From: Planctomicrobium piriforme
GTDB taxonomy: Bacteria > Planctomycetota > Planctomycetia > Planctomycetales > Planctomycetaceae
Length of the DNA: 64,000 nt
Assembly: GCA_945860955.1 (NCBI GenBank)
Contig: CAMATH010000024.1
Span: 1-64,000, forward strand
Direction: 5' to 3'
A model generated the notes under the pieces. That model ran no database searches. It saw only the letters and a program-made list of their open reading frames with translations, and was not told the DNA's origin. How positions within the stretch are numbered: the stretch's first letter is position 1; each line of letters begins with the position of its first letter. Made by a program: the position numbers and the translations under genes. This document shows positions 7,248 to 59,768 of the stretch, in pieces.

Positions 7248-7525
7248 TTTTTTTTCAACCACGATCAGAACGCGAAACTGCGGCGGAGATCAATACTCCG
7301 CACGGCGTCAAGTCAGACGATTTGCGTCCCCAGACCCGCAAGGGAACAGGGGTCTCGAGCCGGAGATGACTCAATTGGAGTCGCCAAGGGGTCAACTTCG
7401 AACCGGTCTGGACGGAAAACCGCTGATGCGGTATTCACTTCTTCACCTGACAGTCATTTCCGTTCGAGAGTCGACCCCTGACCCCTTCTCGTGACACGCG
7501 ACCAGCCTGGTGGCTTTGGCTCGGA

Positions 7526-44558: not shown

Positions 44559-44595
44559 GCGGCGTATGAGTTCACCATGAGGAGATCGGAACCGC

Positions 44596-44613
44596 GTGGA
44601 GTATATACTCCAC
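44596..44613. repeat. Perfect 18-bp palindrome
   Basis: GTGGAGTATATACTCCAC is its own reverse complement. It lies 38 nt upstream of the amidase start, so it could be an operator for that gene. Related half-sites (GGAGTAT and ATACTCC) recur as a hairpin at 59746-59768 and as ATACTCC just before the dispersed repeat at 59239, which suggests a mobile-repeat origin instead. Confidence 0.6.
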
Positions 44614-44631
44614 ATGGCCGGATACGAGAGG

Positions 44632-44705
44632 TTATGCTCCACGCGGCCGATAACGCGACATTGAACGCGAGTGGGATGCAGGTGGATGGGGGCTTGGGCA
44701 AGCCG
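44632..44705 (+). repeat. Dispersed non-coding repeat, copy 1
   Basis: The stretch from TTATGCTCC through GCGGCCGATAACGCGACATT to GCTTGGGCAAGCC matches 59239-59302 closely at both ends, with a few small differences in the middle. Neither copy encodes a protein. This one sits in the 215-nt gap between the amidase start and a DUF1501 gene. Confidence 0.65.
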
Positions 44706-59238: not shown

Positions 59239-59302
59239 CTTATACTCCCCGCGGCCGAAAACGCGACATTGCACCTGAGTCGGAAGGGGCCTTGGGCAAG
59301 CC
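59239..59302 (+). repeat. Dispersed non-coding repeat, copy 2
   Basis: TTATACTCC, GCGGCCGAAAACGCGACATT and CTTGGGCAAGCC occur in the same order and nearly the same spacing as at 44632-44705, about 14.6 kb away. The middle part is shorter here. No coding frame is shared between the copies. Confidence 0.65.
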
Positions 59303-59322
59303 TGATGGCGGCGGGTATTGGT

Positions 59323-59361
59323 GACGGCCCCATCCGCCTTGAGTGGATGGGGAGAAAGATC
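59323..59361 (-). repeat. Hairpin unit A of a four-copy family
   Basis: CCATCCGC pairs with GTGGATGG (one G-U pair) around a 5-nt loop. Read on the minus strand it begins GATCT and ends GGATGGGGCC, like the three related units at 59395-59431, 59605-59641 and 59677-59712. Confidence 0.6.
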
Positions 59362-59394
59362 GATGGCTAGCCCCAAACCACATTGCGCGGTCCA

Positions 59395-59641
59395 GACCCC
59401 ATCCACCTTGTGTGGATTGGTGAATCAGATCTTCGCTCTGTCTGCCACACACGACGTCAGTAGCCAAGTCAACGGGTGCCACCGGCGATGACGTGCTTTT
59501 TACAGGACATGATTGCGATTCGCGTTCCTTGCGACGAAGGGCGACCAATCGCTTTGTGATCCGAACGGGATTCGTATGACGTCGATCTTGTCTCACAGAG
59601 CGAGGATCTCATTCACCAATCCACACGAGGTGGATGGGGTC
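59395..59641. repeat. Inverted repeat with 66-nt arms (MITE-like)
   Basis: 59395-59460 and the reverse complement of 59576-59641 align without gaps over 66 nt; the outer 37 nt differ at only two positions (roughly 50 of 66 identical overall). The outer part of each arm is itself a hairpin with a 9-bp stem and a 5-nt loop (stems 59398-59406/59412-59420 and 59616-59624/59630-59638). The 115-nt centre has no gene. The arrangement resembles a small inverted-repeat element or two oppositely oriented repeat units. Confidence 0.75.
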
Positions 59642-59676
59642 TTGCTCGAGGTTGAGGGGGCATTTTTCTAGCTGCC

Positions 59677-59712
59677 GATCTCATTCACCATCCGGGCGAG
59701 CCGGATGGGGTC
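59677..59712 (+). repeat. Hairpin unit D of a four-copy family
   Basis: GATCTCATTCACCATCC then CGGATGGGGTC repeats the unit at 59605-59641 in the same orientation. Its stem CCATCCGG/CCGGATGG is perfect (8 bp) with the 5-nt loop GCGAG. The compensating stem changes between units D and C suggest that pairing is maintained. Confidence 0.65.
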
Positions 59713-59745
59713 TCGGGACGTGAATCGTCTGATTTCACGCCGTGC

Positions 59746-59768
59746 GGAGTATATTTTCTCGATACTCC
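59746..59768. repeat. 7-bp hairpin GGAGTAT/ATACTCC
   Basis: GGAGTAT (59746-59752) and ATACTCC (59762-59768) are complementary around a 9-nt loop. The same half-sites form the perfect palindrome at 44596-44613. It lies 67 nt past the end of the adenosine kinase-like gene and could cap its transcript. Confidence 0.45.

Follow-up and report, generated by a model that had tools for sequence, protein, structure and literature searches.

Mirrored hairpin units in Planctomicrobium piriforme as likely REP elements with a tandem-Y1 transposase as their probable partner

Four hairpins lie in mirrored order within an intergenic region of Planctomicrobium piriforme, near the end of the stretch of 64,000 nucleotides analysed here (hereafter the window; positions 1 to 64,000 of contig CAMATH010000024.1). 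It is highly probable that these units, A to D, are REP elements of the REPtron type, that the window copy is a non-autonomous quartet carried in a MITE-like element and that a tandem-Y1 transposase gene found elsewhere in the genome is their partner. This interpretation draws on the repeat family itself, the covariation of its stems, the layout and spacing of its units, their linkage to the tandem-Y1 gene and the domain make-up of the encoded protein. Repeats of this kind are already known, whereas the likely enzyme appears to be new.

Units A (59324-59369) and B (59395-59437) are on the minus strand, and units C (59599-59643) and D (59669-59714) are on the plus strand. Unit A, whose coordinates were derived from the sequence and of which a copy is also found at the transposase locus, has its hairpin at 59328-59352 and a TAGC box at 59366-59369. 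The core matches of units B, C and D are at 59395-59425, 59611-59641 and 59683-59712, respectively, and the TAGC box of unit D is at 59669-59672. Common to all four is a frame that consists of a TAGC-like box, TTCACC (or TTCTCC), six variable stem pairs, a 5-nt loop and GGGG. The pattern ATTCACC-N17/18-GGGGTC has three matches in the window (i.e., B, C and D) and none in 100 shuffles; unit A is a variant that carries TTCTCC, and one of its stem pairs is A-C on the minus strand and G-T on the plus strand. The mirrored group of four hairpins reported in an earlier sequence-only reading is thus real, and the paired stem changes quoted there are correct. The interval given there (59323-59712) corresponds to the core found at the transposase locus (L032/L033), where it lacks the TIRs. 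The 431-nt region folds strongly (z of -10.7 against shuffles), in part because arm A-B is an inverted copy of arm C-D, with complementarity of 85% over 66 nt and 72% over 43 nt. These inverted arms also make two folds possible, either four local hairpins or a single long hairpin.

The pairing of the stems is kept while their sequences change. Among 165 sites that were chosen by the flanking frame with the stem ignored, the six-pair stem is complete in 144 and lacks a single pair in 16. Across 40 aligned units taken from 10 genomes, which were preselected at no more than one mismatch and include related, non-independent copies, 98.4% of the stem cells pair and 78 cells are changed on both sides relative to the commonest pair, compared to a shuffled mean of 26.6. 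The number of double-changed cells falls to 3 or 4 when the partner is slid by one column. Two of the five covariation measures (i.e., pairs with a double change and further pair types) are not clearly above the shuffles. The alignment bears out the sequence-only reading's suggestion that pairing is maintained between units, and two of the things for which that reading proposed to look, other units in the genome and covariation in relatives, are present, the former at about 40 places. The pairing is likely maintained in single-stranded DNA on which a Y1 transposase acts, not in RNA. In such a mechanism, the units would serve as short DNA hairpins with a 5' TAG-type box that a Y1 (HUH) transposase recognises in single-stranded form.

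The order of the units follows a strict rule. All 123 pairs of neighbouring units found no more than 260 nt apart in eight genomes are minus-minus, minus-plus or plus-plus, and none is plus-then-minus (i.e., inward-facing), a count whose independence is overstated given that copies within a genome share descent. The mirrored arrangement of A-B and C-D, previously described as unusual, therefore exists as described but is the norm for this repeat. Neighbours of the same direction are mostly spaced by 67-72 nt, with extremes of 55 and 129 nt, and the central distance between the mirrored arms ranges from 70 to 222 nt. Outside P. piriforme, complete minus-minus-plus-plus quartets are found in G280 (five loci) and G271 (one locus). 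Such a quartet would act as one non-autonomous unit, resembling the two ends of a REPtron from which the gene is missing. The outer ends of three G280 quartets (L143, L146 and L147) differ (GATCGATCAATAAG ... GTTATTTACCGGACGC) and resemble a second, imperfect inverted repeat.

Among 40 genomes, its own included, four had matches to the window's element. In G003 and in G011, the latter of another genus, only the hairpins match and their stems are different. A scan for the unit pattern across 297 genomes of the class gave 120 sites in the window's own genome, 30 in G280 of another family, 15 in G227, 12 in G252 and eight in G003. The remaining genomes with a match mostly have one or two sites, many of them stemless, and these stemless matches were set aside. 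True units are also present in G264, G138 and G271, which represent three more families, and units with different, compensated stems occur outside the carrier in eight further genomes. A TIR-like end, with two mismatches allowed, accompanies 27 of 40 unit loci in the own genome compared to two of 32 in eight other genomes, a count that leaves out G002, where two of five loci have such an end. Since units in other genomes mostly lack the carrier ends, the unit is more widely distributed than the carrier. Neither the protein profile nor one exact unit found anything in viral contigs.

A search of ten genomes with the Y1 profile PF01797 found matches in nine of them and none in G280. In the own genome, the match at C60:31596-31901 stands between two TIR-less quartets (L032 and L033), and the tandem-Y1 gene (G000:C60:31116-31916) encodes a protein of 267 aa, P0001, whose relatives were found in 18 of 297 genomes at E 1e-8. 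At 14 of the 20 distinct loci of this tandem-Y1 clade, the gene is flanked by hairpins, which at 13 loci have a TA-type box. Such hairpins are absent from all 29 other Y1 loci, which are of similar length, and from 20 Markov shuffles. The criterion (at least eight Watson-Crick pairs and an NCRRG loop) was drawn up after the first loci had been inspected. The other six clade loci have no such hairpin at the 8-bp criterion. The hairpins all point away from the gene at nine of the 14 loci and are of mixed direction at L211, L216, L222, L224 and L225. Extending the search later to 392 genomes of the phylum added three clade loci, of which L244 has four hairpins and two have none. The unit frame varies among the clade relatives (TTCACC...GGGGTC, GGCTC...GGGGCC and others), as is expected if hairpin and enzyme change together. 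At L217 and L220 (G194 and G278), TAGCTGNCCAGTCG-type units whose loops are RCGGG flank the transposase relatives and are likewise 72 nt apart. Given the gene between two quartets and the contrast between 14 of 20 and none of 29 loci, the units are best read as the REPs of a REPtron. In the own genome, the partner would be the tandem-Y1 protein encoded between the TIR-less quartets, and this enzyme is predicted to bind and cut the units.

The tandem-Y1 protein could instead be a decayed relative, with the REPs served in trans by another Y1 protein. G280 has 30 units yet no PF01797 match, and units are present in G003, G138 and G271 without any match to the tandem-Y1 clade; thus, units persist without the gene. 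Copies of the clade gene in G258, G143 and G216 also contain in-frame stops, which would fit with decay. Nearly all clade members, however, retain the Tyr/Gln and HUH residues, and none of the other Y1 loci has such hairpins, so that we regard service by another Y1 enzyme as unlikely and a tandem-Y1 partner as the better explanation.

The window quartet resides in an element of about 510 bp (59241-59753) that is bounded by TIRs and flanked by TA. The left TIR, TACTCCCCGCGGCCGAAAAC, is at 59243-59262 on the plus strand and is preceded by TA (59241-59242); the right TIR, which reads CACGCCGTGCGGAGTA on the plus strand, is at 59736-59751 in minus orientation and is followed by TA (59752-59753). 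Searching the window's genome (8.4 Mb in 282 contigs) with the element gave 113 match rows, and 40 carrier-related places, many of them internally deleted, were fetched for comparison. Intact copies span from TATACTCC to GGAGTATA, and the DNA outside them is unrelated between copies. TA adjoins the TIR in 16 of 23 copies on the left side and in 14 of 20 on the right, and the 25-nt TIR end is found at 71 places in the genome versus none for a reversed control pattern. The same end also bounds other, unrelated interiors. Shared ends, TA flanks, many copies and varied interiors together indicate that the window quartet sits in a MITE-like carrier, 59241-59753 having the TIRs, TA flanks and multiple copies by which MITEs are defined. 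Judging from the TA flanks, TA may be the target duplication of the carrier. No empty site was seen at the window locus, the flanks of which match different contigs of G002. A DDE_3 search of the genome for an autonomous TIR partner found a single DDE_3 gene with no such TIR nearby, and the 531-nt element had no match in plasmid or phage collections. A separate TIR-bounded, TA-flanked carrier would have spread the window copy, probably by means of its TIRs and a transposase other than the tandem-Y1 enzyme.

Further ends of the carrier TIR family (TATACTCCACGCGG and relatives) are found in the window at 44592-44660, where two are adjacent (44592-44617), and at 7292-7309. In the own genome, six loci (L050, L052, L053, L060, L062 and L064) have the carrier TIRs around a different interior of about 190 bp with GGACGGGTCTCTGACCCGTCC hairpins, four (L065, L066, L075 and L076) have them around a third interior of about 135 bp with a GCCGCGCCCGTCAGGAAGCGG-type hairpin, and five (L051, L059, L067, L069 and L073) contain a repeated GGATGAAGAGGATGAAAGGGATGAACAGGATGGA-like tract within or beside TIR elements. 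The copies at L029, L030, L032, L033, L046 and L047 end no more than 2 nt apart, just outside unit D. We do not claim this position as a cleavage site, because further copies ending close by are members of a longer subfamily.

That most copies in the own genome lie in this TIR-bounded, TA-flanked element, whose TIRs enclose unrelated interiors as well, would also be expected if the quartet were simply the interior of an ordinary TIR MITE, its hairpins inert and the Y1 gene a chance neighbour. TIR-less units with compensated stems and the same spacing are found, however, in other genera and families, and the flanking of the tandem-Y1 gene by units in several genomes already weakens such an explanation, which we consider slightly less likely still than service by another Y1 enzyme. 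Maintenance of the units as structured RNA (a regulator, terminator or small RNA) for the fold of a transcript, to which the strong covariation and the intergenic position could point, is very improbable given that the window has no Rfam match at the gathering score, that at E up to 10 the region matches only at E 0.18 and 0.54 (best score of 20.2 bits versus 70), that the copies are many and scattered with both orientations side by side and that the units are linked to a Y1 transposase.

If the units are REPs of a REPtron, the protein of the tandem-Y1 clade is the more unusual component. The clade alignment, two rows of which duplicate others, shows two tandem Y1-like halves. The motif Y-x-x-x-Q is present in all 17 rows that hold the N-domain, which has other residues at the HUH position. 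In the C-domain, D/N-H-x-H is present in 21 of 22 rows, and this domain stops at or before the Tyr position; the L228 row is cut by a frame break. The Pfam Y1_Tnp profile matched the N-domain alone in all six cases given, four of them over the cut-off, and always to the last profile position. The N-profile matches ISDra2 TnpA (2xm3) with Tyr and Gln aligned, and the C-profile matches 2f4f with HUH aligned; when the profiles of the two halves are compared directly by hhalign, the match is weak (probability of 7, E 0.0047). On the tandem-Y1 protein, Pfam Y1_Tnp scores 58.8 bits and NF033573 (IS200/IS605) scores 55.8 bits against a cut-off of 55, with HUH and Tyr on different domains in both cases, while the NCBIfam REP transposase model NF047646 stays below its cut-off (20.8 versus 80). 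A Tyr in a GEY motif close to the C-domain's end may be an alternative nucleophile; it is F in L219, L221 and L230 (G218 and G265). These few loci lack a boxed flanking hairpin when at least 8 bp are required.

In IS608, the catalytic site is assembled in trans: one monomer contributes Tyr and Q131, the other HUH (PMC5934647). By analogy, the complementary residues suggest that the tandem-Y1 protein retains the parts for one composite active site within a single chain, mimicking the trans site of IS608, in which domain 1 would supply Tyr and Gln and domain 2 would supply HUH. With about even confidence, we propose that the partner enzyme represents a new type of HUH transposase in which fused Y1 domains with complementary losses form a composite site, and that its substrates are pairs of REPs about 70 nt apart at mirrored ends, the quartet being the minimal non-autonomous substrate. 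No paper describing tandem or fused Y1 enzymes was found in the literature searched, whose coverage mostly excluded subscription journals. A classification of RAYTs is reported from Bertels and co-workers (2017).

REPs, BIMEs and REPtrons are already known, Planctomycetes included (PMC3733652; PMC6006769). The present units resemble the REP/REPtron with its RAYT (TnpA_REP), the BIME and the REPIN in being short palindromes with many scattered copies and inverted groups (PMC6006769; PMC8266576; PMC3733652). As in a REPtron, they flank a Y1 HUH transposase gene and have stems that differ between species. A scattered palindrome with its pairing kept and a flanked Y1 gene, the marks of REPs, are therefore both found here. 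In contrast to the REPtrons described there, the box is TAG-like and lies 12-16 nt upstream of the hairpin, instead of being GTAG/GGAG at its 5' foot; a GTAG box does occur in some relatives (e.g., L216, L220, L222 and L244), where it is likewise upstream of the hairpin. Instead of the pairs of REPs described there, four mirrored units are present with a spacing of 67-72 nt.

The class 2 transposase of REPtrons has one HUH-Y core with Y---NP, whereas the tandem-Y1 protein carries Y---Q in its first domain and HUH in its second. The Y1 fold and the Tyr with a Gln four residues on are shared with the TnpA of IS200/IS605 (IS608 and ISDra2; PMC5934647), from which the present system differs by the fusion of two domains, each without a part that the other keeps, and by the mirrored groups of flanking hairpins. 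Class 3 TnpA_Y1, found mainly in Planctomycetes, Acidobacteria and Proteobacteria, has atypical flanking hairpins and high copy numbers according to PMC6006769, where it is characterised by NHVH, Y----Q, a CnGA foot and 178 aa, as opposed to DHxH, Y---Q, a TAG box and about 267 aa here. The GTAG-15 REP dimers of A. variabilis, which lie within TATAGGA palindromes (PMC3733652), are similar in that REPs are found inside a longer palindrome that starts with TATA; the sequences differ, however, and the TIRs found here also bound unrelated interiors. The classes described in PMC3733652 and PMC6006769 do not accommodate the distance of the box, the quartet or the two-domain enzyme.

The surprising part of the system is thus the partner enzyme, which is encoded outside the window. 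A fusion in which each half lacks what the other keeps would provide a ready-made test of trans assembly, and the mirrored 70-nt layout provides a concrete candidate substrate. The tandem-Y1 fusion may stand midway from IS transposases to domesticated RAYTs, and it bears on how REPs spread and on the relation of single-site RAYTs to the two-site dimers of IS200/IS605.
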